In this document: positions 13,067 to 33,989 of the stretch, one piece after another | How positions within the stretch are numbered: the first letter of the stretch is position 1 | Layout of the letters: every line of letters begins with the position of its first letter | NCBI GenBank assembly: GCA_000992695.1 | Contig: LBUS01000011.1 | Location: 1-40,974, forward strand | DNA: 40,974 nucleotides | Source: Candidatus Peregrinibacteria bacterium GW2011_GWF2_38_29 | Lineage (GTDB): Bacteria > Patescibacteriota > Gracilibacteria > UBA1369 > UBA12463 | Direction of reading: 5' to 3' | Position numbers and translations under genes: made by a program | Notes under the pieces: generated by a model | The model's database searches: none | Told to the model about the DNA's origin: nothing | The model's input: only the letters and a program-made list of their open reading frames with translations

Positions 13067-13079
13067 ATATTAATAAGTC

Positions 13080-13126
13080 AAAGCTCAAAAGTAAAAAGTC
13101 AAAACCACAAGTTAAAACTCAAAACT
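13080..13126 (+). repeat. heptamer/13-mer repeat tract (copy 2)
   Basis: Units AAAGCTC, AAAAGTA, AAAAGTC, the 13-mer AAAACCACAAGTT (13101-13113), AAAACTC and AAAACTA, same design as 8125-8206. It occupies the leader or promoter region of the giant surface gene. Confidence 0.75.
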
Positions 13127-16100: not shown

Positions 16101-19100
16101 GCATTTAAGGCGACCACATACGATAATTTGATTATTCAATTAAAAAGCACGGAGGCTGATCTTGCAAAACTTTCCGGCGAAAATTATGACGGAGTTTTAA
16201 CAAGCATTTTGCAAAAAGACGTTGAAGCTTATTCAAAAGACAATGGAAGATTGCTTGGAATATTCGATATTGTTGATGAAAATAAGGCTAAAGACGCTGT
16301 CACTTGGAAAAATATGAGCATTGATGAAAAGCATGCTTATATGATACAAACATCTTCAAATCCGGAAAAGCCTTATGAGGTTATGTACCTTAACGCAAAA
16401 GGTGGAAATGATTTTATTGATATTAATTTTAATGGCAATGCTCCAAAAACCGATTCTGATGAAGAATATAACGATTTGATTTCACAAGCTAAGCTTGATG
16501 CGGAAGATAAGAAAATAGAAGAAGCGCAAGCTGCGGAAGAAGCTCTAAGCAATTCCCAAGATCAAGCAGCAAATACTGAAGATACAGACGCAACGAATGA
16601 ATATACAAAGCCTTATAAATATAATGGCGAAGATGCGGTTATAATTTTTAAATGGGTTCCGGCGGTCATGCAGTGGGTCAAAAATTTACAAAAACAAGCC
16701 GGACAAACTTTGTCTTTTGAAAATGGTCCAAGCGATTCTGATGATTCCGATGCTTCAAGTAAAGATAGCGCAAGTTTGAAAATCACTCCAGATAGAAATG
16801 TCTTGGGAGCAGATGGCGGTGACTCCATAACCGTTAAAGTTGAGGCAATGAACGGCAGTGGAAAAATTTCCTCAAAAGATAATGAAACCACGGTCACATT
16901 AAAAATAAATCCTGAAAATGGTCTTGAAACAAACATAAGCGGCGAAGACTCAATATCTTTATTTGATGGTTATGCAACTTTCAATATCATTTCCGGAAGC
17001 AAAATTGAGAATTTCACGCTTAGCGCAGTTGGAAAAACACCTGATGGAAGAGTTTTATCTTCAAACGCAATCCAGATGAGCGTTGTGAAAAAAAGCCTTT
17101 CAATTGTCACTCCTGAAGATCTCGTTAAAGCTGACAACAAAACTCCTTTTACAATAAAAGTTAATGTTTATGGCGAAGACGAAAAAATTGACGAAAAAGA
17201 CAGTAGCACTATTGCATTAAAAATTTCCGATGAATCAAAAGGCTTCGTAAAACTTTCAAAAAATAAAGTTAAAACAAAGAATGGTGTTGCTGAATTTATA
17301 GCTTATCCTACAAATAAATCCGGCATGATTGAATTTACGGCAAGCGTTACGGGCGGCGGCGCTCCGGATGCGACTTCTGAATTTTCAACATTACCGGAAG
17401 ATCCAACAAAGATTGAAATCGTTGCTTCGCCAAGCGTATTAAAAGCCGGTGGAGGCAAAACTAAAGTTAAAGCGGCTCTTTATGATTCAAGCGGAAACAT
17501 GTCCAATGGAGAGAGCTCTTCGTTTAAATTTGAAATCAGCGGACCCGGAAACATAATAGGCGCAAAAGAAACCGTTTCATTCTCGGGACAATCTGAAGTT
17601 GAAATTGAATCAACTGCTGAAACCGGAGAAATCAATCTTTCCGTTGAAGCAAAATATAGCGAAACAGCCTTAAGTGGTTCTATAAAAATTCAATCCAGAA
17701 ATGATTTAGTGATAAGCACTGAAACTTCTTCGTCTGAAATATTGGCTAATGGAAAAGCAAAAACAATAGTCATGGCCTATGTTAAAGATGGCTCCGGAAA
17801 AATTATAAACAATTATTATGGGCCTATCGCATTTGCTCCTAATGACAGCTCTTTTGGAAATGTTACTGAAAATTCTTCAGCTGAAATCCAAAATGGAATG
17901 GCTTCCGCTGAATTTATGGCGTCCAAAAAAGCAGGCACTGTAAAAATTGGAGCCGCTGTTCCGGGATTTGATCCAACTATCACGGAAATAAAAATACTTC
18001 CGCTTGATCCTCATTCCGTAGCCGTAACTTCTGATAAAAATTCGTTGATAAGTGACGGCGTAAGCACTGCGACTTTGATAGTTAAGCTTCTTGATGAGAA
18101 TAAAAATGTGATTACCGATGGTAAATACGCTGTCCAATTAAAGCTCACAAATGACACAAAGAATTATGGCAAATTCGCAGGTTCCGGAGCCACAAATCAG
18201 GCAACCGTTAATTATGAAAATGGAGCAGGACAAATTGATATTTCTTCAACTTTGATGAGCGGACCAATACATATAATCGCAAGCTCGGGCAATCTTGAGA
18301 AATCCGCTGTTGAAATATTTTCCGCAAAGAGATTTTTTGCCACAGATCTTGACGCAAAATTTACAGGATCACTTTATACAACCGTTCTTGGTGATAGTTT
18401 TGGGGATTTAAATAGCCAGAATTCACTCGCGAAAAAGATTCTTGTTAATGGAAAGACTCAGGCTGTTATGACGAGCCTTTCCGCGGACTGGATCCCCTAT
18501 AATGGCTATGGATTCACGGGTCAAAACAAATATGCGATGCTTCTTGCAGGTGGAAATATCGTTGGTGAAGCAACTTTGCCATACATTTCCGAGTACGCTC
18601 TTGTGCTTGGAGACCCAACCGTAAGACTTTCCCCTAATCAAGTTTCACAAACAGGATATACGAAAGATCTTGGTCAACAAATATATGGCGGAAATGAAAA
18701 AATCCAAACAATTATTCCAATTGATTATAATTCCGATAAAAAGAATGACTTGTTTGTGGCTTATGAAAGCGGAAAAATAAGGTTACTTGAAAATACGGGC
18801 GGAAATGAAAAGTTTAAAAATCGTGGAATAATTCTTGATGTTGTTAATGGAATAAATTATGCGACAGCTTCAGATATCAACTCTGATGGGCAAACCGATT
18901 TCGTCGTTGCGACAAAACGCGGATGTAAAAAAGAAGATGTTTGCGTGGATTTGTATAAAAATAATAATGGATACTTCACGCGTGAAAATTTCCCAATCAA
19001 AACATCCAAACGTGTGAATATGATTGCGGCTGAAGACTTTAACAAAGATGGATTTAAAGATTTGGCAGTATCTGACAGCGTCGGGACTGTTCGAATTTTC

Positions 19101-22100
19101 TATAACAACAATGGAAGCATTAATTCAACCGGACAAAAACTCGGCAACCTTGGAGTGCAAATTGATCCTGATGAAAATCTTTCGAGCAATGTTTTGGTTT
19201 ATCACAGCGGAATTAAAATAACTGAAGCTCCGCCTGTTCCAGGTAGGTACACATTGTCACTTCCGGATAAAAACAAAACTACTAATATTCCTGAAATGCA
19301 GGCGGATTATGCCGCGACTATGGCGGAGCTTGATAAATTTGAAGGCGAGCCTGATCCAATGGCAAAAACAATTGAAACCGACTTTGCAATTTATAATTCC
19401 GACAATGCAAAAAATGCAAATGTTACTATTGATAAACGCGTAAGTGTTTCCAAAGAAGAGCTTGATGTTGGCGATATTATAAATTATACGATTACAATTA
19501 AAGCGAAAACCAATGTTTCCAATTTATGGCTTGCTGATCGCCTTAATGGCTTTACGGAAATCGATAAAAATTCTATAAAATATAACTCTAAACCTTGTGA
19601 TACGACATTCAAATGCTATGAAACGGGTGATCTTGAGGCTCCGTATATTCTTGGTGGCGTTAGCGTTCCTTCCGGCACAACTATAAAAATAACTTATTCG
19701 GCAAAAATTCTAAGCTTGCCAAAAATAAATATAACCGCGATTAGGAATTCGCCGGATGTTCCTGTTGTTTCTGATATTCCTGCAATTCTTGCAAATCCTG
19801 AAGGAAATACTTCCGGATCTGTTGTTTATTTTTATCCAAATGGAGATCCAACTCCTACAACAGGCACAACTTCATTCACACAAATTTCCGTTGGTGGAAA
19901 AGAAGCAACGACTGAAAAAGCGATAGATCCCTTTAAGACTGTAACTGATTTGTTCAAAACGACTAAAACCACCCTCCAAGGCTTTAACCTTGCTGATTCT
20001 GATAATGAAGATGGCACAATTGAAATGGCCGGCGGAGGAGATTCAAACACACTTCCCGAAGGCATGAAAAAAGAAATGGAAGATTATAATAACCAGCTTA
20101 TGGGTAATGATTCGGATATGGACGGTACTCCTGATCTTCTTGATGATGTTAATAATGCTTATAACGCCGGCGCCGCGGCCTTGGGCGCTGTTGAAAATAA
20201 AGTTGGTGCCGCTCTTGATAAAACAGCCAATGTCGTTGAAAGCGGAATTGCAGCCCTCAGATGTTCCGGTGGTTGTATCCCAACACCAATAAATATCGCC
20301 TTCCTTGTTCCCGGCATGATAAATACGATGGGTGTTCCTTCGGGTTTTGTGGAAGGCCTTCCTGTTTTTGGAACAGGTTGTCCAAATATCGTTCCGATCT
20401 GGCCGCCAACGCCATATCAGTCTTCAAACGGATTCAGACTTTATGTTTCCCCAACATTAACAGCAAAAGTTGGGATGGGATTTTGCACAGGAGGCTCTTA
20501 CCTTACAGGCCAATGTTTTGCAGTTGCTCCGCCAATTCCAACGGGAGGCGCTTGCGACAAAATTGCAAGTGGCATGTCCAGCGCAGTTTCAAAAGCCGGA
20601 TCAATTGCACAATCGGGCGTTGATAGTATGACAACGATTGTTTCCGACCCTGCGGGAGACAGCAGTGGCACAACAAGCGGATTTAAATCCAGCGCAGCAT
20701 TCAAGGGATATAAAGTTGCAAATGTTACCGGTTCAAAAAACATATCGATACCGGGCTTTCCTGCCGTTATTTCAAAATGGCTTGATCGACAAATCGAAGA
20801 AGCTGTTAACAAGCTTGGTGACGGTCCGGATATATATTTTATTTATCCAAAATGGAGTTCGATAACCGGTTCAATTAAGCCTCAAAAAACGAATTTCACG
20901 GGAATAAAGCAACTTTTAACATACATAAACAGCATCCCTATAATTCAAATCGAAGGAAGAGATGTTATGATTCGCGTTCCAACTCTGACTAAAAAAGAAG
21001 TCGATAAAGCTGTGAATGACTACAAATCATTTAAAAAAGATTTAGATAATGAAATTGAAAGAGTAAAAAATAAAATAAAATGTAAATATGACGCTCAAAA
21101 AGGTGGATATTATGCACCGGAGCCATATGAACAACTTTGCGCAAAGTTAATGGTTAATGCCGCGGGCCTTTCCAGATCCATTGAAAAAAATATCGATGCG
21201 CTTGAACAATGGAAAATGTTCCCAAAGAAAGTCATTGAATTTAGAAATTTCGAAGCAAAGTATGCAAAGCAAATTATAAATTATTTAACCGTTATAACAG
21301 ACTATGTCGGCGGATACATGCAAAGACAGCAACACCGCATTGAAGCATGGATGGAAGCCATAAAAAAGATTAAAAAAATTCTTGAAAGCTGGCAATTGCT
21401 TCTTGATATCATGATCGATTATCAAACTTCTTGCGACTCTTGTAAATCGGATAGATTTTCCTTGCTTGAAATTTTGTTAAAGATTTTTGCTGCAATTCCT
21501 GAGCCACCGGTTGTGCAATTCCCAAAACTTCCGGATATCGTTCTTGATGTTTCACAAATACAAGCCGGAATAAAAATCATATGGCCGGATATGATATTCA
21601 TGCCTGAAAAACTTATCATTCCGCCACTTCCAAGAATAAGATTTCCTGATATTGTGCCCGGAATTGAAATTGAACTGTTTGAGCTTCCGATAGTTCCAGC
21701 CCCTCCACCGCTACCGGATCTTCCTAATTTGCCACCTTTGCCTTTGGTCAAACTTCCCGATCTTCCGCCTGCTCCAATAATTCCAAGCCTCCCTTCCTCA
21801 ATAAAGAAATCGAGCGACATTCTTAAGAAATTGATGAAAATACTTTGCCTTCTTAAAAAAGGATTTATTCCCGTCCCTGAAACAAGTTTAAAAACTGAGA
21901 TCGAAAACATTACGCAAAGATCACTAAATCCACCTCTCGCAATTGATCTTGCTATGCCAATTCAATCGCCTGCAATCTCTTATTCAATGATCGATAGAGT
22001 TACCGTTGAAGTCAAAATTAATGCGCAAGTCAAAACCGATAAAATCTATGATGCTGTAAAAGGCCTTGCCGATAAATTGAATGGTTATACCAGTTCGATC

Positions 22101-25100
22101 GTAAAAATCGTCAACTCAAGCGTTATGAACGTCAGAAACGCGGTTGATAAGGCCACACAGCCGGATATTAATGTTCCGGACATTCAACTTAATAAAAAGC
22201 TTGGCACCTTTAAAGAAAATAAGAATCCATATATAAATCTTGTTGCGACGCAAACATTCATAAATGCAAAGGATCTTCCTGTCTCTCCAAATTTAAAAAA
22301 TATTTCCGGAAATTCTTATATTGAAAATCTCAAATCTTCTTTGATCGCTTATACTGAATCCAGCAGGGGTCTTGCCTATGATGCTCCGCATATAAGCAGA
22401 TTCTTGGCTTCAGCAGGCGGCTTACCAATTCCCGATTCAATCGCAAAAATGCAAGAAGAGGCCGGTAAAACCGCTACACCAAGAGGAATATTTATTTACA
22501 ATGAAGAGCAAAATGTTAATGAAAAACTTGTTAATTATACCGAGGATATTAAAAATAACAGCCATATAATTTATTTTGACGCTGATAATGATAGTGATGA
22601 AGATGTGCTTTTATCCTTTAATGGCGATATTTATTTAAAAGAAAATCATAAAATTGCACACGAAACTGATAAGCATTTTACAGGGTTTGATGATGATGAA
22701 ATTGACGATCTTTTGCCTAATGCATCCTCTGTTAATGCTTTCGCGGCTGATTATAAAAATAAAAGCGCAACATTTACATGGATGCAATCGGGACAAAAAA
22801 ATCTTGCAGGTTATGAAATAACTTATCGCGGAACAGATGGCATTCATAAAGTTCGACTTGTTCTTGGCGAACCAAAAGAAGATGAAGAAAAACTTGTTGC
22901 CGGCACAAGTCCAACATATAGCTTGGCTCTTGAAAATGGCGTCTATTACGCGCAAATCGCGTCGTTTGATACGGACAATAATTACTCAACAATTTCCGGA
23001 GCAACTCTTCTTGCGCCACAAATATGTTCTGACACCTCGGCTCCAATGCCAAACGCAGGACCAAATAAAATCCGAACGCCGGTTCTTAAGCCTGTTCGAA
23101 TTGATGCAAGCGGATCAATTGATCAAGGCGGCGAAGTGACAAGTTACTTCATTGATACAAATCTTGAAAAAGATGACAACGGCGACTCTGATCCAACAAA
23201 TGATAAAAATATAAATAACGGTTCAAACCCAATATTTATAATGGGCCCTTATGAAGATCTTGGTATCCAAAATATAAAAGTTTATGCAGTTGATCAATCC
23301 GGGAATATGGCAGGTCAAAATATTGAAATTGAAGTTTATACACCTGATGTTGAGCTGACTGCAATCTCTTATGAAAGTAAAAATGCTTATGGAAAAACTA
23401 TCCCACCTGAAAGTGAAATGCCAATAACGCTTGTTCGTGATAGAAATGGAAAAGTCGATACTCTTGGCGAGTATATAACAAATTCCAAGGGTGAATTTAA
23501 GGCTGAACCATTAAGCACTGAAGGAAAAATTGTCATCAAAAATGCAAAAGGTGAGATTGTCGCCGAGTACGATGAAGCAACCGGGAAATTAACTCCAACC
23601 AAAGAAGGATATTATCTCGATATCACTCCAAGCACCGGTGGAATGCCACCGCTCGTTAATTTACGTGATAAAGACGGCAATATTTTGATCAGCATTTTCT
23701 ATATTGCTGATGCCAATACTGACACAAAACTTGATTCTTCAGATATCGAATATACACAGGAAGGTGTAAAAAACATGGTTGGTGTTCATTCAAAAGATAT
23801 CAACTATGAAGATGAATTTATATTCAAAAAAATTGCCGGCGATGATCCGACTTGGTTTGGTTCAACTGAAATTATTTATAAAAATAACAACAAAAGAATT
23901 GCTTTGATTGATACTCTTGGAAATGTTTATATTCTTGATCCAAGAGCGGGAATGAGGCTTAAGAGCGTGAACCCTGACGATCCTTACGTACTTGAGATTT
24001 TATTTGACGGCAAAGTTATTGGTGAAGTTTTTGTATCGATAAAACTCCCTGCGCCGCTTAATCTTGTTTCAAAAGATATGTTTGCAAAAAACTTTGGCAC
24101 AAGTGAAATCATAAAAAATCCCGGAAATAAAAACACACCTTCATTCAGAGATATTCCGCTTGATAGTAAATATTCAAATGCTGTTGAGACGCTTAAAAAA
24201 CGCGGAATCATCCAAGGATATAAAGATGGAACCGGAGAATATTTTAGACCTGAACAAAACATAACAAGAGCTGAATTTACAAAAATGATCCTTAGAATGC
24301 TTTGTATTTTCCCCGGAAAAGAAGCAAAAAGCGCTCCTGCAGTATTCAACGATATACCGTTTACAAAGTCTTTACCTTGGTATTTTGATTATACAAAAGA
24401 AGCATTCTTGCGAGAACTTATATTTGGATATCTTGGCGAACAAGATGCAAATGGAATGAATCCATTTAAGCCTCAGGCGAATATATCTCTTGCAGAAGCC
24501 GTAAAAATCGTTATCGAAGCGCTTTATATGCAAAAAATAATTGACTTTGAAAGGCCTGGCTTGCAAGCCCCTTGGTATAAACCATATATATTTATGGGAC
24601 AAGATTTAACACCATTCTTGAAAAGTGTTAATGACGTTAATGAAAGCTTTATTATAACAACCGGCCAAGCAAGAGATCCTGAAAAACTTCTTACAAGAGG
24701 TGAATTCGCGGAAATTGCGAATAGGGTTATTAGAGTTTACGACTGTTCAAATCTTGATTCTGATAAAGACGGTATGACTGATATTTGGGAAGCTGATCAC
24801 AATTTAAACAACTATTTAAATGATGCTGATGATGATCCTGATAAAGATGGACTTAAAAATATTCAGGAATATCAGAATCAAACAGATCCATTGAATCCTG
24901 ATACGGACGGCGATGGACTCAAAGACGGTGAAGAAATATTTACTTATAAAACTTCGCCAATCAATCCTGACACGGATGGCGACATGCTCACCGATGGCGA
25001 AGAGGTGCTTAAATATATGACAAATCCATTAAATCCCGATACGGACTTTGGCGGAGTTCCGGATGGAGTTGAAGTTAATCGAGGCACGGATCCTCTTGAT

Positions 25101-25319
25101 CCTCTTGATGACTTCGGAAAATCAGACAGCAAGTTGCCACCTGGAGTTTATGGAATTTTGGCTGACTGCAATGCTTGCCCATGCCCTGCAACAATCGAAC
25201 ACACAGCACAACTTTTACCTGGCGATATTATTTACGCAATGATAACAAATAAAAAACATGACAAAGTGTTTAGCAAGAGTAATGAAATAATTGTTAATCC
25301 AAAGCAACAAACCTTATGA
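13161..25319 (+). CDS. giant multidomain S-layer-type surface protein, 4052 aa
   Basis: Exported envelope protein. Signal peptide 1-36 ends VSA. Approximate residue map: 57-280 a region with IVLVGNIPLPE and a D-x-x-Y...G-x-P pattern reminiscent of the gingipain (C25) fold, catalytic His/Cys not identified; 583-685 PDZ-like (GDVLLSIDGKKL); ~1200-1740 four or five bacterial Ig-like (Big_1/invasin-type) repeats; 1850-1970 three FG-GAP/VCBS-like Ca2+ motifs; 2087-2180 DUF11-like; ~2316 a DSDMDGTPD loop; 2840-2885 Pro-rich; 3190-3276 Fn3-like; 3293-3393 PKD-like; 3660-3856 three SLH domains, the usual anchor to cell-wall polymer; 3865-3980 thrombospondin-3-like repeats (NPDTDGDGLKDGEE); a C-terminal CNACPCP. 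Its TGA overlaps the next ATG (ATGA). Likely roles are S-layer or adhesion; a protease function is only a guess. Confidence 0.93.
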   Translation: MHTKIKTLLTLNRLISGFILASFVLTQVIGIQTVSAFNLYPRVDAEESFMAPKNIEHSDMVAVLVSKDIYDNDDDFEGLNEKYDGLKNNTIKYRVERYAEDIAKVLPKTKVKIIVAENNTDAPRKIYEVLDKLYFEGEEVKNTVAQLRGIVLVGNIPLPEVEKSGKKFTTIFPYTDFDERAYVYDYTKNTFVSNPSSLDPSADVWHGVIPGTPDEIATYLDKNHLYHTGNKDFTDFAQKVLYADLNRENETMTRAMYKNYEEYTNSLEKMAYYRYTKEWLIDLMKKFNESIAADVEMDTADQEVPAASANQKIKSNGKEQSVSALMKSSNDNLKKALTQGTDISIPDIFTKFLVEKYAFPYYKLFEKHLSEVNDFVAGSGRWDESSVDTAISLISKKDLDSREFLKQINNSVEKKVDEIVEKLQKPIPLIRYVEVSGYTNLQHDATGKIIKRDATMNLGFKNSEMSHKSEAEACLFPYFNNSKNLVFLANGLDHYMKDDGWKSYINGISYENLNSAEQCSLWRGNALNDDSKAAKMLRTGNLSTLNTYEYPKESLADPKKPPTPRKSPSIGVNTKIIDKNSLNGLGISGDYNYGFVVAPDLKTGVPAVYTEAANDVSKILAEGDVLLSIDGKKLTQSHDVAEAMKPHHPDIYQITYGSSGLPEKNYDNAEVEFWQKSSGKIVTAKIGIIDANSGNDYARKPWEVYENRPWSADCYAINMTTPEKCFPSFATIPVYDEAGAYATKNESKDYLKSQSSYRACYDFNIYESPSNSNTDVSARHIGMAQYLYEAKLRDDTFLYTYVPGVGEDPWTCGGVTYRSNSYIKNSGKYGPAKAGEVPKAPTQDPKYLPLTWDNKFTLFDLLKAYASSQNLAPIGFDGFKSKFLETAKTEIVSISMKADGGFESKFIKPDVFVLFEPHFYPDDQNPKTISSVIKHKNPTNETLGIQLKSYSAEALPVDDPRYVTFKNKLDNKETTLLYPNAFKATTYDNLIIQLKSTEADLAKLSGENYDGVLTSILQKDVEAYSKDNGRLLGIFDIVDENKAKDAVTWKNMSIDEKHAYMIQTSSNPEKPYEVMYLNAKGGNDFIDINFNGNAPKTDSDEEYNDLISQAKLDAEDKKIEEAQAAEEALSNSQDQAANTEDTDATNEYTKPYKYNGEDAVIIFKWVPAVMQWVKNLQKQAGQTLSFENGPSDSDDSDASSKDSASLKITPDRNVLGADGGDSITVKVEAMNGSGKISSKDNETTVTLKINPENGLETNISGEDSISLFDGYATFNIISGSKIENFTLSAVGKTPDGRVLSSNAIQMSVVKKSLSIVTPEDLVKADNKTPFTIKVNVYGEDEKIDEKDSSTIALKISDESKGFVKLSKNKVKTKNGVAEFIAYPTNKSGMIEFTASVTGGGAPDATSEFSTLPEDPTKIEIVASPSVLKAGGGKTKVKAALYDSSGNMSNGESSSFKFEISGPGNIIGAKETVSFSGQSEVEIESTAETGEINLSVEAKYSETALSGSIKIQSRNDLVISTETSSSEILANGKAKTIVMAYVKDGSGKIINNYYGPIAFAPNDSSFGNVTENSSAEIQNGMASAEFMASKKAGTVKIGAAVPGFDPTITEIKILPLDPHSVAVTSDKNSLISDGVSTATLIVKLLDENKNVITDGKYAVQLKLTNDTKNYGKFAGSGATNQATVNYENGAGQIDISSTLMSGPIHIIASSGNLEKSAVEIFSAKRFFATDLDAKFTGSLYTTVLGDSFGDLNSQNSLAKKILVNGKTQAVMTSLSADWIPYNGYGFTGQNKYAMLLAGGNIVGEATLPYISEYALVLGDPTVRLSPNQVSQTGYTKDLGQQIYGGNEKIQTIIPIDYNSDKKNDLFVAYESGKIRLLENTGGNEKFKNRGIILDVVNGINYATASDINSDGQTDFVVATKRGCKKEDVCVDLYKNNNGYFTRENFPIKTSKRVNMIAAEDFNKDGFKDLAVSDSVGTVRIFYNNNGSINSTGQKLGNLGVQIDPDENLSSNVLVYHSGIKITEAPPVPGRYTLSLPDKNKTTNIPEMQADYAATMAELDKFEGEPDPMAKTIETDFAIYNSDNAKNANVTIDKRVSVSKEELDVGDIINYTITIKAKTNVSNLWLADRLNGFTEIDKNSIKYNSKPCDTTFKCYETGDLEAPYILGGVSVPSGTTIKITYSAKILSLPKINITAIRNSPDVPVVSDIPAILANPEGNTSGSVVYFYPNGDPTPTTGTTSFTQISVGGKEATTEKAIDPFKTVTDLFKTTKTTLQGFNLADSDNEDGTIEMAGGGDSNTLPEGMKKEMEDYNNQLMGNDSDMDGTPDLLDDVNNAYNAGAAALGAVENKVGAALDKTANVVESGIAALRCSGGCIPTPINIAFLVPGMINTMGVPSGFVEGLPVFGTGCPNIVPIWPPTPYQSSNGFRLYVSPTLTAKVGMGFCTGGSYLTGQCFAVAPPIPTGGACDKIASGMSSAVSKAGSIAQSGVDSMTTIVSDPAGDSSGTTSGFKSSAAFKGYKVANVTGSKNISIPGFPAVISKWLDRQIEEAVNKLGDGPDIYFIYPKWSSITGSIKPQKTNFTGIKQLLTYINSIPIIQIEGRDVMIRVPTLTKKEVDKAVNDYKSFKKDLDNEIERVKNKIKCKYDAQKGGYYAPEPYEQLCAKLMVNAAGLSRSIEKNIDALEQWKMFPKKVIEFRNFEAKYAKQIINYLTVITDYVGGYMQRQQHRIEAWMEAIKKIKKILESWQLLLDIMIDYQTSCDSCKSDRFSLLEILLKIFAAIPEPPVVQFPKLPDIVLDVSQIQAGIKIIWPDMIFMPEKLIIPPLPRIRFPDIVPGIEIELFELPIVPAPPPLPDLPNLPPLPLVKLPDLPPAPIIPSLPSSIKKSSDILKKLMKILCLLKKGFIPVPETSLKTEIENITQRSLNPPLAIDLAMPIQSPAISYSMIDRVTVEVKINAQVKTDKIYDAVKGLADKLNGYTSSIVKIVNSSVMNVRNAVDKATQPDINVPDIQLNKKLGTFKENKNPYINLVATQTFINAKDLPVSPNLKNISGNSYIENLKSSLIAYTESSRGLAYDAPHISRFLASAGGLPIPDSIAKMQEEAGKTATPRGIFIYNEEQNVNEKLVNYTEDIKNNSHIIYFDADNDSDEDVLLSFNGDIYLKENHKIAHETDKHFTGFDDDEIDDLLPNASSVNAFAADYKNKSATFTWMQSGQKNLAGYEITYRGTDGIHKVRLVLGEPKEDEEKLVAGTSPTYSLALENGVYYAQIASFDTDNNYSTISGATLLAPQICSDTSAPMPNAGPNKIRTPVLKPVRIDASGSIDQGGEVTSYFIDTNLEKDDNGDSDPTNDKNINNGSNPIFIMGPYEDLGIQNIKVYAVDQSGNMAGQNIEIEVYTPDVELTAISYESKNAYGKTIPPESEMPITLVRDRNGKVDTLGEYITNSKGEFKAEPLSTEGKIVIKNAKGEIVAEYDEATGKLTPTKEGYYLDITPSTGGMPPLVNLRDKDGNILISIFYIADANTDTKLDSSDIEYTQEGVKNMVGVHSKDINYEDEFIFKKIAGDDPTWFGSTEIIYKNNNKRIALIDTLGNVYILDPRAGMRLKSVNPDDPYVLEILFDGKVIGEVFVSIKLPAPLNLVSKDMFAKNFGTSEIIKNPGNKNTPSFRDIPLDSKYSNAVETLKKRGIIQGYKDGTGEYFRPEQNITRAEFTKMILRMLCIFPGKEAKSAPAVFNDIPFTKSLPWYFDYTKEAFLRELIFGYLGEQDANGMNPFKPQANISLAEAVKIVIEALYMQKIIDFERPGLQAPWYKPYIFMGQDLTPFLKSVNDVNESFIITTGQARDPEKLLTRGEFAEIANRVIRVYDCSNLDSDKDGMTDIWEADHNLNNYLNDADDDPDKDGLKNIQEYQNQTDPLNPDTDGDGLKDGEEIFTYKTSPINPDTDGDMLTDGEEVLKYMTNPLNPDTDFGGVPDGVEVNRGTDPLDPLDDFGKSDSKLPPGVYGILADCNACPCPATIEHTAQLLPGDIIYAMITNKKHDKVFSKSNEIIVNPKQQTL

Positions 25320-25903
25320 AAAAAATTATAATAACAATCTTGGCAGCCTTAATCATCTCATTATTTGGGCTTAATCATGCGATGAATTTTGCATTTGCAC
25401 AGGACGCGCCGGCGCAGGACCCCGCTCAAGATCCTGCTGTTGCCGATACATGCTTAGTTGGTATGAAAAAATACTTTGATGGAGAAGATGGTGAAAGCGG
25501 CGCAAACAAATCATTCCGCGACGATATTGAAGCCAACTTTAAAAATAAATCTGCAAATAGCTCTCTTTTAGGACTATCTGTACAACGATATGAAAGATAT
25601 AAATTGGATGCAGCTGCGGAATATGCCAAATTTGCTCCACAGACCGGTAATAGCCAAGAAGCTGAATATTCCGAGCAAAATCAATGTTATTATGAAATTC
25701 AAAAACAAATTCAAGACGCAAGAAAAATTATTATCAATGATATAAAAATAACAACCTATAAGAAAAAACAAACAATTCTGATTGAAAAATATGATTCGAT
25801 TTCGGAAAAAATGAGAAAATTTAACGTGTCCCTTGCTGAGCTGAAAGCCTTTTTCATGACATTCAAAGACAAAATACCGGGATTTATAAAAACATGCATA
25901 TAA
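25316..25903 (+). CDS. exported protein of unknown function, 195 aa
   Basis: Signal peptide at 1-29 (hydrophobic core IITILAALIISLFGL, A-F-A-Q cleavage region), then a short Gln/Asp/Pro repeat-like linker, then a mostly helical domain with three Cys (in CLVG, QNQCYY and the last-but-one residue). I do not recognise the family. Its ATG overlaps the stop codon of the giant surface gene by four bases, so the two are translationally coupled. It is followed within 5 bp by another exported protein. Three further exported unknowns follow in the same operon, suggesting parts of one envelope structure. Confidence 0.85.
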   Translation: MKKIIITILAALIISLFGLNHAMNFAFAQDAPAQDPAQDPAVADTCLVGMKKYFDGEDGESGANKSFRDDIEANFKNKSANSSLLGLSVQRYERYKLDAAAEYAKFAPQTGNSQEAEYSEQNQCYYEIQKQIQDARKIIINDIKITTYKKKQTILIEKYDSISEKMRKFNVSLAELKAFFMTFKDKIPGFIKTCI

Positions 25904-25908
25904 AATTT

Positions 25909-26586
25909 ATGAATAAAAAATATAAAATCATTATCGCCGGACTGATTGCAATAGGAGCCATTGCTCTGATAATGTTTTTTATCCCAAATAAGGCGCAAAC
26001 TTCCGGCAATGAGCCGCCTATTGATCCTTTAACCGCCCTTGATGTCGCTGATCAAAAAAGTTTTGACAGCTTAAAAGAGGTTTATCACGAATCGATGAAT
26101 ACGCTGTTTAATGAGGCATTTAGCAGAATAACCGCCGGAAACGCTTTAACTAAAGCTCCTGATGAAACCGACACAAAAGATGAAGCCTGCTTGCCAACAA
26201 AAGAACCTCTTAATGTCAGCACTTATTGCGTAGCTGTTCGAGCCGCAAAGCTTTATATGGACTACCAAGTCCGACTGGAATATGTGAAAGGCAGTATAGA
26301 TATAGGCCTCTTCAATAACTCAGGCGTTGTTGGCCAAGACGGCATTGTTGCCGACTTAGCTGCAAAAGGAAAAGCCGTCTTAAAAGAAATCGAAGATTCT
26401 AAAAAAGCTCTTGATGTGACTGTTAATGCATATAAAGAATTTCAATATGCTTATCCGATGCATAAAGCTTATGAAAAAACATTTAACCTACTTGTTAAAT
26501 ATAGAGATTTACTAGGCGAAATAAGGGGACAAGTCGAAGTCTTTCCTTCAAAATTTATCGATGCGACAACCTCAAAATGCGAGTAA
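25909..26586 (+). CDS. membrane-anchored or exported protein of unknown function, 225 aa
   Basis: The N-terminus MNKKYK plus a ~20-residue hydrophobic segment (IIIAGLIAIGAIALIMFFI) is a signal anchor or uncleaved signal, as no clear cleavage site follows. The remainder is helical, with Cys in DEACLP, STYCVAV and the penultimate residue. An alternative ATG at 25894 overlaps the preceding stop and adds five residues; the 25909 start gives a cleaner signal. The C-terminal Cys also occurs in its operon neighbours. No family is recognised. Confidence 0.8.
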   Translation: MNKKYKIIIAGLIAIGAIALIMFFIPNKAQTSGNEPPIDPLTALDVADQKSFDSLKEVYHESMNTLFNEAFSRITAGNALTKAPDETDTKDEACLPTKEPLNVSTYCVAVRAAKLYMDYQVRLEYVKGSIDIGLFNNSGVVGQDGIVADLAAKGKAVLKEIEDSKKALDVTVNAYKEFQYAYPMHKAYEKTFNLLVKYRDLLGEIRGQVEVFPSKFIDATTSKCE

Positions 26587-26587
26587 T

Positions 26588-28348
26588 ATGAAAAAAATCT
26601 TAATCACATCACTGGCAATCTTAATCCTCGGAATAGCTCTGAGTATGCCGGCATTTGCCGAAGATTCTTCAAGCTTGCCACTCAGCAATAAAAAGCTATT
26701 CACAAAAATGCTTAGCGCGGCAGGAATTGATAATCCTGAATATGAATTTAGCCTGTCTGATATTTTCGGTAGTGATGAAAAATCTTACGGTCAAAATCTA
26801 TATCTCGCGATGTATCAAAAAGTTGCTATTGAACCTCAAGAAACAGCTTTAAATAAAGTTGCTCAAATGAAAGGCTTGAGCGCTGAAGAAGCAAACTCGA
26901 TTCTTAATGGAAGCATAGAACCTCTTATTCAATCTCATCCAAAAATATCACAGGAAGATGCTTTAAGATGGGCCGCTCAAATGCGAGAAATTTATCAAAA
27001 CAACTTTGATACGGCCAGCCTTAGCGCCGAAGCTGAAGCCGAAATAATGCCTACTGAAATATTTGCGAATAACGATACTTCCGATTCAGGATTTGACCTT
27101 GTTGCAGACCTAAATGACATCGAAAAAATTATGTTTATTGATGTTGGCGCCGTTGATGTTATGCAAACATATTCAGGTGGACAGCCTTATAAAGATACGA
27201 AAAAGCCACAAGACATAGCTCCGGGACCTGAGCCTTCGATTGCGAATCCTCAAGCTGAGTCAAATTCCGGATCAGGAGGTGGAGCCGAACAAATATCATC
27301 AGCTTTAACTGAAACACCTAAAAATAAAGCACCAAAAGCAAAAATTGGGCCAAAACCGTTTGGCACTCTATATACGCCTGAGGCTGATAAAAGTGCTCTT
27401 GAGACTTCCGAGGCCCAAGTTGCCGTTGATAATGCCTGCCCAAGCGATCCTGCGCTTGATTCAGCAATAGAAGAATATGATCAAACACATGAAACTTCAG
27501 AACCAACGCTTTCTTCCGGGAACACAACGAATTCAAACGGCTCCACCGGATCAAAGGATAACGGAAGCTCCAATGGTACCACCGGCAATACCGGGAACGG
27601 CTCAAACAACTCGCCCAATTCCGAATCCGAAGATATATTTGCCGTAAAAGACATAGATCCTCTTCCGGATAAGATAGAAATGGCACCTGCCGGCCAACAT
27701 CAAACCACAGATCTTTGCCCTGATGGTGCGTTTTTCTGCATAAAAATATCCACACATTCCGCGAAATACAACACTTACTACCCTGCTGATCCTTGCATCG
27801 CATGTCATGTTGAAAAAATGAATGAAGCCATGAAAAAGCTAAATTCACGCAATTTAATGCCAAAAAAATTGACAGGAAATCTTATGGAAGTTGCAAAATG
27901 CAAAAAAGGATTTAGTCTTAGCAATTTACTTAATATCAACCTGATTACTGTCCCAATGCCAATCAGGACCCCGGAAGGCAAAGAAGCCTCATTTGGCAAG
28001 AATATAATGGATGAAATTAAGTATTTTATTAATAACTCCACGTTATTTAAGGTTGGCGAAGACTTTAATAAAGCCGCTGAAATCGTTGATACATGGAAAT
28101 CATCCGCAACAACACAAGAAGATCTTTACCTGCAAATCGAGCAAATGATTCAAGCCGCAAAAGCTAAATCTGAAATAAATCTTAAGGTAAATGAGGCGAA
28201 AATTGATAGTTACTCACAAGGCTCATTTTTCCAGCAATTAACGCGTCAACTTGAACAAATGAATGTATTTTTTGAAAGCTTTAAAACGCTTATTGAAGGA
28301 ATTAACGATACTTGCGGAGAAGTTGTTAAAAAAGAATATGTAAAATAA
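26588..28348 (+). CDS. exported protein with low-complexity linker and single CxxCH, 586 aa
   Basis: Signal peptide at 1-24 (ending MPAFAED). N-terminal helical domain to about residue 150, a Pro/Lys-rich stretch, then a Ser/Gly/Asn/Thr linker at about 310-350, and a C-terminal helical domain with several Cys (DLCPDGAFFC, DPCIACH, VAKCKK, NDTC). CIACH matches the haem c attachment motif CxxCH, but it is single and no distal haem-ligand context is evident, so a disulphide or metal role is equally possible. The start ATG 26588 follows the previous stop by 1 bp and is preferred to 26561, which lies inside the upstream gene. Function unknown. Confidence 0.85.
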   Translation: MKKILITSLAILILGIALSMPAFAEDSSSLPLSNKKLFTKMLSAAGIDNPEYEFSLSDIFGSDEKSYGQNLYLAMYQKVAIEPQETALNKVAQMKGLSAEEANSILNGSIEPLIQSHPKISQEDALRWAAQMREIYQNNFDTASLSAEAEAEIMPTEIFANNDTSDSGFDLVADLNDIEKIMFIDVGAVDVMQTYSGGQPYKDTKKPQDIAPGPEPSIANPQAESNSGSGGGAEQISSALTETPKNKAPKAKIGPKPFGTLYTPEADKSALETSEAQVAVDNACPSDPALDSAIEEYDQTHETSEPTLSSGNTTNSNGSTGSKDNGSSNGTTGNTGNGSNNSPNSESEDIFAVKDIDPLPDKIEMAPAGQHQTTDLCPDGAFFCIKISTHSAKYNTYYPADPCIACHVEKMNEAMKKLNSRNLMPKKLTGNLMEVAKCKKGFSLSNLLNINLITVPMPIRTPEGKEASFGKNIMDEIKYFINNSTLFKVGEDFNKAAEIVDTWKSSATTQEDLYLQIEQMIQAAKAKSEINLKVNEAKIDSYSQGSFFQQLTRQLEQMNVFFESFKTLIEGINDTCGEVVKKEYVK

Positions 28349-28351
28349 AAA

Positions 28352-29482
28352 ATGAAAAAAACTATTAAAAAAATATTGGCTTTCACTCTCATAACGGCTT
28401 CGCTATGCGGATTTATGGTTGTTCGCGATTATAGCGAGCCAACTCTCACAAAAGCTGAAAGCTGCTCTGCTATCAACTATTACAATGATTTTGATATATT
28501 TTTGAGCAATCTGGTCAGCTATGATGATTTCTCCGAATATTTTAAGGACATCTTTAGCAGAAATTCATGCCAAAGAGATGATATTTTCATGCTTGAAACG
28601 CAAATACAAAAGCAAACAAAGCTCATTAGACAGGCTTATGAAAATTGTAATCCCGGAATACTAACCAAGCTTATACCAAAAGTATATACGCTTCAGGTTG
28701 AGCTCATGTATCTTCGAAAATTTGCTATAAACAATCCAAATAAAACCGCCGGACAACCTGAGATGATTCCGTATGAGACATATCGTCTTTATACTGACCT
28801 ATCTAAAGAATTTGTTGTTAATAAAAAAATATTTAAACAAAACGAATTTGATGCCGTTTATGACACAATAGCCACAAAATATGCTACAAAATTGGATGAA
28901 TATAACAATTGCGTTGATGTTTCATGGAAAGAGCTGAATGAAAAATGGGACGAATTTGTTGCAATGCGCGCAGGTATGACTCCTGCTGTGGATAAAATGA
29001 AACAAAGCATTCAGAACAAAGCTAAGAAGATAAACGAAGCTCCTCCAAAAGGCCGTGGCGAATTACTTGAAAGTCTTTTTGCAATAGGCATAAACGGAGT
29101 TGATGCCCCACAAGGCTTAAGCGAAATAGTCCAAGAATATCAAAAAAATAAACCCGGATTCATGCCGGATATTGATGATCCAAACAATCCCGTCAAAGAC
29201 AAACCTAAAACCGAAGGTAGTTCCAATACAACAGGCGTAACATTCGACAATATTGTAAGCGGGTATGCCAGCGCAAACGACAAATATGAAAAGGATAAAG
29301 AGGCCACGGATATACTCACAAAGTACCGCTTTTTATATAGAGACGACGCAGACGAATCTATAAAAACCTTAATTGAAAAAATAGACGACCTCAATAAAAC
29401 AATCGAAGGCACCTTCCCTGCCGAACAAAACTTCTTCAAATGCGCAAAGGCAATCAAGGCGAAACAATGCCAAAATAAGTAA
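28352..29482 (+). CDS. exported protein of unknown function, 376 aa
   Basis: Signal peptide at about 1-36 (ILAFTLITASLCGFMVV, then a less hydrophobic part ending KAES). The mature part is mainly helical, with paired Cys (SCSAINYY, RNSCQRDD, YENCNP and two near the C-terminus, FFKCAKAIKAKQC). The gap to the upstream gene is 3 bp. It is the last gene of the 16-kb surface operon and is followed by a strong terminator. No homologous family is recognised; the shared pattern of secretion signals and terminal Cys with its neighbours suggests they act together. Confidence 0.85.
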   Translation: MKKTIKKILAFTLITASLCGFMVVRDYSEPTLTKAESCSAINYYNDFDIFLSNLVSYDDFSEYFKDIFSRNSCQRDDIFMLETQIQKQTKLIRQAYENCNPGILTKLIPKVYTLQVELMYLRKFAINNPNKTAGQPEMIPYETYRLYTDLSKEFVVNKKIFKQNEFDAVYDTIATKYATKLDEYNNCVDVSWKELNEKWDEFVAMRAGMTPAVDKMKQSIQNKAKKINEAPPKGRGELLESLFAIGINGVDAPQGLSEIVQEYQKNKPGFMPDIDDPNNPVKDKPKTEGSSNTTGVTFDNIVSGYASANDKYEKDKEATDILTKYRFLYRDDADESIKTLIEKIDDLNKTIEGTFPAEQNFFKCAKAIKAKQCQNK

Positions 29483-29678: not shown

Positions 29679-29876
29679 TTATTTATGAGCATAGCGCAGC
29701 ATTACACCGAGAATCGCGCCTTTTAACTTATTCTTGAGAATTTCCTTATAGTTCTGCTGTACAACCGAAGCTGTCATTTCACGAAGCAGAGCCTCTTCAC
29801 ATTCCCATTTGCAATAAGGGCAATTTCGCATATTCGACGAAACTGACTTCCCGCAATTTAAACAATTGACTATCAT
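29679..29876 (-). CDS. zinc-ribbon protein, 65 aa
   Basis: Two CxxC knuckles, NCLNCGKS and NCPYCKWEC, 15 residues apart, form a rubredoxin-like zinc ribbon at the N-terminus; a basic helical tail (KEILKNKLKGAILGVMLRYAHK) follows. The ATG at 29876 starts just before the ribbon, as usual for this class. An upstream TTG at 29930 would extend it by 18 basic residues and overlap the HTH gene by 8 bp, which would couple the two. Probably co-transcribed with that gene. Nucleic-acid or protein binding is likely; exact role unknown. Confidence 0.75.
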   Translation of the reverse strand: MIVNCLNCGKSVSSNMRNCPYCKWECEEALLREMTASVVQQNYKEILKNKLKGAILGVMLRYAHK

Positions 29877-29922
29877 TTTTGTTTGTTTATTGACCTTACG
29901 CGCTTTTTGCGCTCCAGGCCTT

Positions 29923-30204
29923 CTACTCAATCACGAAATGATCTCTACCCGAACTAGATTTTATAATTCTTAAGGCACTTCCCTCAGTCTTGGCTACCCC
30001 TGTTGGTTTGCGCTTAGCAGATGTATCCTCGACTTTTTGGCTTAATGACTCCGTAAAATTCTCTAGATCCGCTTCTTTGATCCTATACATACGTCCAATC
30101 TTGATCGCTTGCAGGCGTTTTGATTTTATCAATTTCAAAACTGTGAAAGGGTGAACCTGCAATATTTTTGCGACTTGTTCGGATGTCAAAAAATTCTCTG
30201 TCAT
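29923..30204 (-). CDS. excisionase-family (HTH_17/MerR-like) DNA-binding protein, 93 aa
   Basis: Residues 1-~55 form a winged helix-turn-helix of the excisionase type: FLTSEQVAKILQVHPFTVLKLIKSKRLQAIKIGRMYRI followed by the acidic D-L-E-x-F end. The rest is a basic, Ser/Lys-rich tail ending in SGRDHFVIE. Such proteins are transcription regulators, phage excisionases or small-plasmid factors. No integrase is in the window. Directly upstream lie two arrays of 10-bp-spaced ATTAAA units, its likely operator region, with a -10 TATAAT 25 bp ahead of the start. Confidence 0.9.
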   Translation of the reverse strand: MTENFLTSEQVAKILQVHPFTVLKLIKSKRLQAIKIGRMYRIKEADLENFTESLSQKVEDTSAKRKPTGVAKTEGSALRIIKSSSGRDHFVIE

Positions 30205-30210
30205 TTTTAA

Positions 30211-30310
30211 TTGTTTTAAATTCCTGCTGATTATACTACATTACATTCAATTTCAGCAAATTTTATTAAACTTTATTAAATTACATTAAATTTCTGACAA
30301 CTTTATTTAA
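30211..30310. repeat. decamer array A: about ten units of TTnnATTAAA in 10-bp phase
   Basis: Read in steps of ten from 30211, successive units end in AAA or a near match: TTGTTTTAAA, two weak units, TTACATTCAA, TTTCAGCAAA, TTTTATTAAA, CTTTATTAAA, TTACATTAAA, TTTCTGACAA, CTTTATTTAA. No insertions break the phase. The array covers the promoter of the HTH gene (-10 at 30230-30235). One helical turn per unit would put the AT tracts on one face of the DNA. Confidence 0.75.
30230..30259 (-). promoter_or_regulatory. promoter of the HTH-zinc ribbon unit, inside array A
   Basis: On the minus strand, -10 TATAAT (30230-30235) and a weak -35 TTGCTG (30254-30259) at 18 bp. Predicted leader about 18-20 nt to the ATG at 30204. 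The upstream DNA is entirely phased AT units, which could act as an UP element or as operator sites. Confidence 0.5.
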
Positions 30311-30327
30311 AAGAACATTATTTCGTG

Positions 30328-30368
30328 AAACCACTATATACAATTTAACACAATTTTTCAAGTGGTTT
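30328..30368. repeat. 8-bp inverted repeat between the two decamer arrays
   Basis: AAACCACT (30328-30335) and its exact complement AGTGGTTT (30361-30368) enclose 25 nt that hold two copies of ACAATTT. It is the only non-periodic segment between arrays A and B. Confidence 0.45.
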
Positions 30369-30370
30369 GT

Positions 30371-30510
30371 AAAGTGAATTTAACTTAATTTCATTAAATT
30401 ACTCTTAATTTTGTTTAATTTTATTAAATTTGGTTAAATTCTATTAAATTTTAGATAATTATATTAAATTCTAATAAAGAATATTAAACTTTATTAAAGT
30501 TTGTTAAACA
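30371..30510. repeat. decamer array B: fourteen units of nnATTAAATT in exact 10-bp phase
   Basis: Read in steps of ten from 30371 the units include TCATTAAATT, TTATTAAATT, TGGTTAAATT, CTATTAAATT, ATATTAAATT, ATATTAAACT, TTATTAAAGT and TTGTTAAACA; all fourteen share T/A-TAA at the same place. The phase is kept over 140 bp without indels. It fills most of the 347-bp gap between the 88-residue gene and the HTH gene. No ORF is credible here. Confidence 0.85.
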
Positions 30511-30551
30511 ACATTAGCACAAGTATGTTGGCAGTGAAAAATAAAAAATTA

Positions 30552-30818
30552 TTACATCTCTTTGTAATACCTTACGTCATCTGTAAATGTAACCGAATGG
30601 ACAAGTGGAGCTATTGACGCTTCATATCGCACAAGCAATCCTCCGTCGTTAGTGGTTATTGTCATTGATTTTCCATTTAACTCTGCTGTAAGTCCCTCGC
30701 ATGATCTAATCGTTCTTAAATATCCTTGTGCCAATACCGCACTTTTAAAATCTACAACCATTTGCGTTGCTTTTGATAAACCGCACTCCATTGGATCATC
30801 GTGCACGTTTAAACTCAT
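30552..30818 (-). CDS. uncharacterised small protein, 88 aa
   Basis: Soluble protein with several Cys (MECGLS, IRSCEGL) and a C-terminal beta-like half (GKSMTITTNDGGLLVRYEAS, SVTFTDDVRYY). No family is recognised and no signal or membrane segment is seen. It lies upstream of the decamer arrays on the same strand as the HTH gene, 41 bp before array B. ATG at 30818 is preceded by an AT-rich stretch with TATATT as a possible -10. It may be co-regulated by the array, but this is inference. Confidence 0.6.
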   Translation of the reverse strand: MSLNVHDDPMECGLSKATQMVVDFKSAVLAQGYLRTIRSCEGLTAELNGKSMTITTNDGGLLVRYEASIAPLVHSVTFTDDVRYYKEM

Positions 30819-30888: not shown

Positions 30889-33807
30889 CTATTTTTGAAG
30901 CCACTTCCCGGTCAAGGAGTCTTTATTCTTCATAATCTCTTCAGGAGTGCCTTTTGCAATGATTTCACCACCAAGGTTGCCACCGGCCGGTCCAAGGTCA
31001 ATTACGTGGTCAACCGACTTAATCACGTCCAAATTGTGCTCAATCGTGATGATTGTATTGCCTTTATCGGTTAAGCGATGCAAAACCTCAAGTAATTTCT
31101 TAATATCGTCAAAATGAAGGCCTGTAGTCGGTTCATCGAGAATATATAGGGTTTTACCCGTAGAACGCCTTGAAAGCTCTGTAGCGAGCTTAATTCTTTG
31201 CGCTTCACCTCCTGAAAGGGTTGTTGCAGGCTGTCCAAGGTGAATATAACCCAGTCCAACGTCTTGAAGCGTTTCCAGCTTGATTTTGATGTTTGGTATA
31301 GCCGAGAAAAATTCAACCGCCTCATCAACTGTCATATCCAGCACTTGTGCGATGTTTTTGCCTCTATAACCGATCTCAAGAGCCTCTGAATTGTATCTCT
31401 GGCCCTTACATTCTTCACAAGTGACATAAATATCAGGCAAGAAGTGCATTTCTATCTTTTTTGTACCTTCACCTGCACAAGCTTCACAACGGCCACCTTT
31501 TACATTAAAGCTGAATCTACCGGCTTTATAACCGCGAAGCTTGGCTTCCGGCGTCATGGCGAAGATGTCTCTGATATCAGTAAAAACGCCTGTATATGTT
31601 GCCGGATTTGAGCGCGGAGTGCGTCCAATTGGAGATTGATCTATATTAATAACTTTATCAATATTCTCAACTCCTTCGATTTTGTCATGTTTTCCCGGAT
31701 TTGTGCGTGAACCATAAACATCCTGCATTATACGTTTTACAAGAACGTCATTTACAAGTGTTGATTTGCCTGAACCTGAAACTCCGGTGACGCCAATGAA
31801 CATTCCAAGCGGAAATGAGACCGTTAGATTTTTGAGATTATGTTCACGAGCACCTGTTATTTTAATAAATTTACCATTTCCTTTACGTTTTGGTTTTGGC
31901 TCATAAACAAGCTTTTTGCCACTTAAATATTGACCCGTGGAAGATTTTGCATTTTTCATGATTTCAGCCGGCGTTCCTTGTGCGACAACCTCTCCACCGT
32001 GCTTACCTGCTCCCGGACCAATATCAAGAATAAAATCTGCGGATTTCATCATGTCTACGTCGTGCTCAACGACAATGACCGTATTATCAAGATCACGAAG
32101 CTGCATTAATGTTTGAATGAGTTTTTCATTATCATCCTGATGAAGCCCAATTGTTGGCTCATCCAAGACATAAAGCACGCCTGATAGCTTTGAACCGATT
32201 TGTGTTGCGAGCCTGATTCTTTGCGCTTCACCTCCTGATAACGTATTTGCCGAGCGATCAAGCGTTAAATAAGGCAAACCGACATTCATAAGGAATTGTA
32301 GGCGATTTTTTATTTCAGCGAGTGGAAGTTTTGCGATTTCCGCCTCGTTTTTTGATAAAACTAAAGTTCCCGCGAATTTTAAAGCTTCATCAATCGACAT
32401 TTGCGAAACATCGACAATCGACTTTTTATCAATTGTGACAGCCAAAACTTCAGGTTTTAACCTTGCGCCGTGACATGTCGGACACTCAAGAATGCGCATA
32501 AAACCTTCTATTTTCTTGCGAACGTAATCCGAATCGGTTTCCATATATCTTCGCTCCAAATTAGGAATTACGCCCTCAAAAGTTGTGTTGTAATCGCCCT
32601 GAAAACCGCTTACCGCAATGTCATCATCTGAATCGTCGTCCGAATCGCGTGAAATAGATCCGCCAATTCTGACTGTATATTTTTTATCTCCTGTGCCTTG
32701 CAAAACCAATTCCATGGCTTCTTTTGATAATTGCCCTACCGGCATTTCCATGGAAAATTTGTTTGCCTTGGCAACCGCTTCAAGAATTCTGTTATACCAA
32801 GTCAAATGCGAAGTTGTTGAAGACCAAGGCATAATCGCGCCCTCTCCAAGTGTTAAATTCTTATTTGGCATAACAAGATCAGGATCAATTTCCAGCTTTG
32901 TTCCAAGCCCATGGCATGTTGGACACGCGCCATGCGGACTATTAAAAGAAAACATTCTTGGTGAAATTTCCGAAATACTTATATTACACGTTGGACATGC
33001 GTATTTATCCGAATAAATTTCTTCTTTTTTTGTATCGAAATCCTGAACGATTATTGTGCCTTCGCCATGTTTTATGGCTATTTCAACTGAATCTGCAAGC
33101 CTTGAACGATCCGGATTTGGCATATCAATCTCCTGCCCTGAAGGAAGAACTTTTTTGATTGGTTTGAAGTTTTTTACAACTAAACGGTCAACGATAATAT
33201 CAATTGAGTGTTTTTTATTTTCATCGAGCTCGGGAACTTCAAGAATGCTATATGCATTACCATCAACGCGCGCCCTAACAAAGCCAAGTTTCTTAATTCT
33301 TTCAAAAACGGCTTGATGCGCACCTTTTTTATCACGAATCATTGGCGCCATAATCATAATTTTGGAATCTTCTTTCATATCTGAAATTATTTCCACAATT
33401 TGGCTGACACTTTGACGCGTAATAGGCTTGCCGCATTTTGGACAATGAGGATGTCCAACTTTGGCGAATATAAGCCTTAAATAGTCATAGACCTCTGTTA
33501 TTGTTCCAACCGTTGAACGTGGATTTCTTGGCGCTGATTTTTGATCTATTGAAATTGCGGGCGAAAGTCCGTCGATGGAATCCACATCCGGCTTTTCCAT
33601 TAATTGCAAAAATTGTCGCGCATAAGTTGAAAGCGATTCGACATATCTTCTCTGGCCTTCCGCATAAATTGTATCAAAAGCCAGAGTTGACTTACCTGAG
33701 CCGGAAAGCCCTGTAATAACTGTTAATTTGTTCTTTGGAATCTCTACTGAAATGTTTTTCAGGTTGTGTAAACGCGCGCCTTTTACTGTAATTTTATCAA
33801 TCGGCAT
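30889..33807 (-). CDS. uvrA: excinuclease ABC subunit A (UvrA)
   Basis: DNA damage sensor of nucleotide-excision repair; a dimeric ABC ATPase that loads UvrB. 972 aa, close to the usual ~940. Two ATP sites: Walker [10 protein letters not shown] (about 31-39) and GVSGSGKST (~650), with signature [14 protein letters not shown] and [14 protein letters not shown] and Walker [12 protein letters not shown] and [11 protein letters not shown]. Zinc modules: CPTC...CPTCHG (about 265-300) and CEAC...CEEC (about 755-785), plus an early HPHCPKCG. A small acidic Ser/Asp insertion ([14 protein letters not shown] near residue 390) is unusual. Transcribed from a promoter with TTGACT/TAAAAT inside repeat tract 3; single-gene unit. 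Confidence 0.98.
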
Positions 33808-33841: not shown

Positions 33842-33871
33842 ATTTTAGCACGAGATTCACACGAAAGTCAA
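33842..33871 (-). promoter_or_regulatory. uvrA promoter
   Basis: On the minus strand TTGACT (33866-33871), 18 bp, extended -10 TGC-TAAAAT (33842-33850). The -35 falls inside heptamer repeat tract 3. Predicted leader about 28 nt. No LexA-type CTGT-N8-ACAG box is evident. Confidence 0.6.
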
Positions 33872-33917
33872 AACTCAAAGGTCATAACTCAAAACCACAA
33901 TTCAAAAATCAAAAGTT
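33864..33917 (+). repeat. heptamer/13-mer repeat tract (copy 3)
   Basis: Units AAAACTC, a 14-mer AAAGGTCATAACTC, the 13-mer AAAACCACAATTC (33891-33903), AAAAATC and AAAAGTT, the same design as the tracts at 8125 and 13080. Here it lies upstream of a minus-strand gene (uvrA), so the orientation relative to the gene is opposite. Confidence 0.75.
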
Positions 33918-33989
33918 TAAAAAGGTTTAATGTGGCGATTTTTGAGATCAGCCTGCCGTGAGTCGACCCAAGAAATATAACAAAAATAA

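Follow-up and report, generated by a model that had tools for sequence, protein, structure and literature searches.

Background

In the ParR-parC system, two arrays of direct repeats with a spacing of about one helical turn flank the promoter of the operon that encodes the binding protein itself, ParR, which is a ribbon-helix-helix protein with ParM as its motor partner. Streptomyces BldC was reported to bind head-to-tail to direct repeats that contain AATT and are spaced by about one turn, and to form a filament; the AATT tract is required, and Phe21, Trp31 and Leu43 form the basis of the head-tail contact (PMC5859096). BldC-like filaments have been described in crystal structures with short sites. 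The excisionase RdfS is reported to oligomerize on DNA (PMC11963761).

We analyzed a window of 40,974 bp from Candidatus Peregrinibacteria bacterium GW2011_GWF2_38_29 (contig LBUS01000011.1), a member of a group of uncultured bacteria of ultrasmall size, in which a long array of 10-bp direct repeats was found just upstream of a gene encoding a BldC-like winged-HTH protein. The features of the locus are as follows:

25894..29482, plus strand: conserved exported-protein genes (clusters 3, 0, 1), convergent and downstream of the HTH/zinc-ribbon pair, linked to it by synteny only
29679..29930, minus strand: small zinc-ribbon protein, whose gene overlaps the HTH gene or directly follows it
29923..30204, minus strand: HTH_17 / BldC-Xis-type winged HTH protein of 93 aa, the proposed array reader
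30245..30304, minus strand: array block A with 6 phased units in a row, over the leader and the second candidate promoter
30259-30230, minus strand: TTGCTG-N18-TATAAT, a second promoter candidate within block A, kept in the related genomes G001 and G002
30328-30335 / 30361-30368: 8-bp inverted repeat AAACCACT...AGTGGTTT, with one arm on either side of the gap promoter
30361-30333, minus strand: TTGAAA-N17-TATAGT, a candidate sigma-70 promoter located in the gap that separates blocks A and B
30373..30502, minus strand: array block B with about 10-12 units of 10 bp in phase, located upstream of the main promoter candidate and kept in relatives
30889..33807, minus strand: uvrA, the usual upstream neighbor (43 of 70 loci)

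Phased Repeats Upstream of the HTH Gene

A preliminary description of this DNA had reported about 24 ten-base units, written ATTAAA on the plus strand and in strict phase over 240 bp. The claim that the phase exceeds that of shuffled AT-rich sequence was borne out by autocorrelation: identity at lag 10 within 30205-30515 was 0.571, whereas dinucleotide shuffles gave 0.359 ± 0.026 (z 8.2; 0 of 5000 shuffles), and this was the strongest 10-bp phasing within the window. Both blocks contributed, block B with z 7.0 and block A with z 4.7. The count proved too high, as some of the units are degenerate, and a profile trained on relatives recognized about 17-20 units in a single orientation and in two phased blocks spanning 30245-30502, with additional degenerate block A units near 30224 and 30309. 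Phase was strict within either block but lost over the gap: the blocks are shifted by 2 bp relative to one another, as the TTAA phase differs between them (mostly position 4 (mod 10) in block B and 6 in block A). The repeat itself was confirmed, but its conserved direction is that of the minus strand, the sense strand of the HTH gene, on which the unit consensus is AAA(A/G)TTTAAT. The region between the HTH gene and the small upstream ORF is 83% A+T.

Block A had also been said to cover the promoter of the HTH and zinc-ribbon genes. A second candidate promoter does lie inside block A. A good promoter match was found in the gap, and this match is kept as TTGAAA-N17-TATATT in G002 (locus L004) and as TTGAAA-N17-TAnnnT in many other loci. 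The inverted repeat already noted in the gap was found in G001 as well and is lost in G002. Comparison of G001 with the window showed a nearly identical array and leader, next to unrelated DNA just upstream. An 88-aa small ORF (30552-30818, minus strand) sits between the array and uvrA in the window, and the G001 sequence in its place looks unrelated, despite the near-identical adjoining array. An RNA element was considered and rejected, with no Rfam match and an array that reaches upstream of the promoter.

The HTH Protein

The protein encoded just downstream of the array carries the family label HTH_17 or 'excisionase family' (TIGR01764 'excise' domain). A profile of 26 orthologs searched against PDB gave the BldC-DNA structures 6AMA and 6AMK first (E 3e-5). 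The AlphaFold (AF2) model had pLDDT values exceeding 90 for most of residues 1-50, and Foldseek likewise ranked the BldC-DNA complexes at the top, with prob 1.00 and a TM to target of about 0.8, followed by phage Xis and RdfS, with RacA, TubR and pSK1 Par lower on the list; the E-values were modest (0.005 and up), as expected because only about 50 residues were compared. As in the BldC family, the protein is a small MerR-like winged HTH without a dimerization coil.

The three BldC residues of the head-tail contact correspond to L15, L25 and I36 in the window protein. Homologs mostly have F or Y at L25 and L at I36, and the core positions were hydrophobic in all 71 homologs (L/I, L/F/Y and I/L/F/V, respectively). 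Besides, BldC Thr27, Arg48 and Gly44 are invariant among the 71 homologs, while His46 and Arg47 are not conserved. The guanine reader Arg30 of BldC is replaced by Lys in 65 of 71 homologs, which is in keeping with an array unit that has no conserved C-G.

Conservation and Copy Number

Orthologs of the HTH protein were found in 50 of 59 relatives and in 43 of 46 high-quality genomes, the protein at locus L032 (GW2011_GWC2_39_14) being 98% identical to that of the window. The array profile was learned from 625 units at the 69 orthologous loci in Ca. Peregrinibacteria and relatives that were usable, and the spacing between successive units was exactly 10 in 467 cases. At least three phased units were present in 69/69 orthologous upstreams, as compared to 11/345 shuffles and 1/189 upstreams of other genes; at other spacings this was seen in 1/69 (lag 9) and 3/69 (lag 11), and the sense strand was preferred, with the reverse complement passing in 31/69 upstreams only. 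Since the profile was trained on the same real loci, on which unit recognition was also tuned, the shuffles, other lags and other upstreams, all scored with the profile held fixed, are the meaningful comparison. Thus, the array is found beside orthologous HTH genes in related genomes, where the preliminary description had proposed to look for it. In the named genomes, in which loci of up to about 8 kb each were searched, the best 4-unit match lay upstream of the HTH gene, at a distance of at most about 400 bp, and nearly always on the sense strand. The array was absent at L103 and L107, two BldC-like genes of other phyla, and no comparable array was seen at sampled BldC-like genes of other classes. 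The open literature searched, with most subscription journals outside its scope, contained no report of such an array in CPR bacteria.

A four-unit sequence model had a match in 40 of 44 genomes of the order, and nearly all matches with E below 0.005 in these genomes fell at the HTH locus. The array is essentially one per genome. A regulon of short arrays was rejected, as lag-10 pairs and triples were not above other lags in G054 and in large parts of G014, G020 and G023. Arrays elsewhere in the phylum were also searched for (380 genomes) and rejected; matches outside the order were few, mostly weak and away from BldC-like genes. As a separate observation, another Patescibacteria family, f48 (L255, L257, L258; G493, G576, G569), contains several 10-bp arrays of 3 to 6 units, more than one in some genomes and none beside a BldC-like gene.

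AT-rich phased direct repeats that adjoin the gene of a DNA-binding protein and occur once per genome also recall an origin of replication whose iterons the HTH protein would bind, as had been proposed, but we regard this as very unlikely. No DnaA-box cluster was found at the array in the few genomes examined, dnaA is located elsewhere, and the cumulative GC skew was inconsistent, with no switch at the locus in G014 and G020 and a local minimum there in G023; local skew flips around many loci are explained by the convergent gene order. In G054 the skew is monotonic and therefore uninformative on an origin. This genome (L108-L157; PGYE01000001.1, HGW-Peregrinibacteria-1) is a single contig of 998,424 bp in which the cumulative GC skew falls monotonically with a mean of about -0.30, genes lie on both strands (316/275 ORFs) and the third-position skew is -0.61/+0.64. 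Such whole-chromosome strand asymmetry suggests unidirectional replication or an ori next to ter; it has been reported for some Microgenomates by authors who found complete Peregrinibacteria genomes typical in skew (PMC7143001).

Gene Neighborhood

The typical order at the locus is uvrA, array, HTH gene, zinc ribbon and convergent exported-protein genes. The zinc-ribbon partner was kept in at least 42 of 70 loci, and its true start is probably an internal ATG rather than the listed ORF start. In the window, the genes of the locus close a gene run containing a 4052-aa SLH/FG-GAP surface protein; this giant protein (13161-25319) has SLH, FG-GAP, invasin/Big_1 and TSP3 domains. A dispersed repeat around CTCAAAACCACAAGTTAAAA was also observed in the window (8125-8197, 13070-13126 and 33864-33930) and in more than 20 further places in G000, the genome carrying the window; it gave 27 matches (up to 3 mismatches) versus 0 in the reversed control, is mostly intergenic-looking and has a unit step of about 7 bp.

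No recombinase was found among the conserved neighbors at 70 loci, and chromosomal synteny was stable. An excisionase/RDF acting with a tyrosine recombinase at the att sites of a mobile element was rejected on this ground.

Since each genome has essentially a single array, a role like that of a centromere or anchor comes into consideration, in which the HTH filament would handle the chromosome (segregation or anchoring) and autoregulation would be a by-product. This reading fits an HTH gene that is near-universal in the order and a lack of enrichment of 2-3-unit sites elsewhere, and plasmid loci provide a precedent for iterons of a DNA-binding protein around its own promoter. However, no cytomotive NTPase (ParA/ParM/TubZ-like) was recognized beside the array, where the conserved neighbors are uvrA, the zinc ribbon and exported proteins, and the partner of the HTH gene is the zinc ribbon. 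RacA, TubR and pSK1 Par do occur in the fold list, but winged HTH folds are common; likewise, ParB_N was detected in only 9 of 44 genomes of the order, mostly in ORFs of 370 aa or more, but many bacteria lack ParB, and its absence proves nothing. We consider this role unlikely. A related version, in which the array and the HTH protein would form a structural filament-nucleation site (centromere- or membrane-anchor-like) and the same filament would control its own promoter, in a lineage where a canonical ParB is mostly not detectable, is conceivable, though improbable.

Unit Letters and Recognition-Helix Residue 20

Residue 20 of the HTH protein aligns with BldC Lys26, a base-contacting residue. 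The unit was found to differ with this residue at a constant 10-bp phase: loci with F have TTTAA, loci with Y have TGTAA and loci with L have more A. In g2 (G003, G004, G005 and G007), a sister genus within the window's own family, the recognition helix is HQYTVLKW or HQYTILKW as compared to HPFTVLKL, and AAARTTTAAT is replaced by AAARTGTAAT in the array with the 10-bp step retained. Units were called with positions 5 and 6 masked (numbering from 0). With statistics that ignore shared ancestry, the difference was p 6e-5 for G against T in Y20 loci and, calculated per locus, p 2.5e-8 (position 5) and p 2.4e-6 (position 6) for more A in L20 versus F20 loci. The F/L state of residue 20 showed about 5 changes on the neighboring-protein tree, at least 3 of them forced by well-supported branches. 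The two nested single switches were each weak, with p 0.007 at L104 and p 0.09-0.38, not significant, at L073. Since the p-values ignore shared ancestry and the nested switches are weak, the covariation of unit letters with residue 20 is only suggestive of binding by the HTH protein. At four loci (L082, L088, L092 and L099) the homologs have Asn for Lys24 and the arrays share TTTAATTAAATTGGGT-like double units.

The covariation also bears on a further reading, which takes up the curved-DNA and UP-element proposals of the preliminary description, that the array is intrinsically curved or promoter-activating DNA (phased A-tracts, an UP-like element or a nucleoid-protein site) that is not read by the HTH protein. 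AT tracts one helical turn apart would bend DNA, and promoter matches lie within the array. However, the consensus exceeds AT content, strand direction is conserved, the array follows the HTH gene and not other promoters, and the units of a locus shift jointly from TTTAA to TGTAA along with the recognition helix of the HTH protein, a correlated change that curvature or an UP element leaves unexplained. We consider this reading quite unlikely.

Proposed Mechanism

The adjacent HTH protein had been named as the natural candidate binder, and one unit per helical turn had been taken to suggest a protein filament; this prediction was strengthened by BldC as top match, by the co-occurrence of gene and array and by unit letters that track the recognition helix. 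It seems likely that the HTH protein forms a head-to-tail polymer on the array that flanks the promoter(s) of its gene and in this way regulates itself. The array would be a long operator for the BldC-like protein encoded just downstream, with one protomer per 10-bp unit, all in the same direction; adjacent protomers would touch head-to-tail, so that the filament would extend along the array and cover or flank the promoter(s) of the HTH gene itself. The simplest outcome would be cooperative negative autoregulation of the HTH and zinc-ribbon pair. We infer binding of the array, filament formation and promoter repression from the fold, the correlated changes and the BldC precedent (PMC5859096).

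A regulator with itself as essentially the sole visible target is odd, and the near-single-copy array raises the question of the purpose of a filament that targets only its own gene. Long ordered arrays, mostly of 6 to 20 units and present lineage-wide, make the head-to-tail filament model directly testable, and unit letters that move with one recognition-helix residue would amount to a comparative specificity code for the BldC-like fold. In addition, few regulatory pairs of protein and DNA are known in uncultured CPR bacteria, and the locus provides a predicted one.

Comparison with Known Systems

ParR-parC shares oriented repeat arrays that surround the promoter of the gene for the binding protein but differs in its ribbon-helix-helix fold and ParM motor, neither of which was seen at the array locus. 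The same holds for type II/III partition systems (parMRC, tubZRC) in general, where the iteron array has a counterpart here and the cytomotive NTPase does not. pSK1 Par and RacA show some fold similarity, weaker than that of BldC, and no coiled-coil tail was evident in the HTH protein. Excisionases (phage/ICE Xis, Pukovnik Xis 4J2N, RdfS 8DGL) share the TIGR01764 'excise' domain and the fold, but the array locus has no conserved recombinase neighbor and keeps synteny with uvrA and the exported-protein operon across the order.

BldC (6AMA, 6AMK) is the nearest PDB relative of the HTH protein by both sequence and fold, and the two share AT-rich direct repeats one turn apart and hydrophobic head-tail core positions. 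The repeats agree with those of BldC in their single orientation and step (about 9-10 bp), whereas AATT is present only in the A variant of the unit, at position 4, and the C-G pair that follows the BldC AATT by 4 bp and is read by Arg30 has no conserved counterpart. The HTH protein further differs from BldC in the replacement of Arg30 by Lys, an extra C-terminal tail and a zinc-ribbon partner. The BldC sites studied hold 2 to 4 repeats in regulon promoters, as compared to up to about 20 units at essentially one site here. The earlier statement that no described system combines these features was thus too broad, as the mechanism class, a BldC/Xis filament on direct repeats, is already known; on the other hand, the length of the array, its near-single-copy placement at the promoter of the HTH gene itself, its lineage-wide conservation and its changing unit look new.
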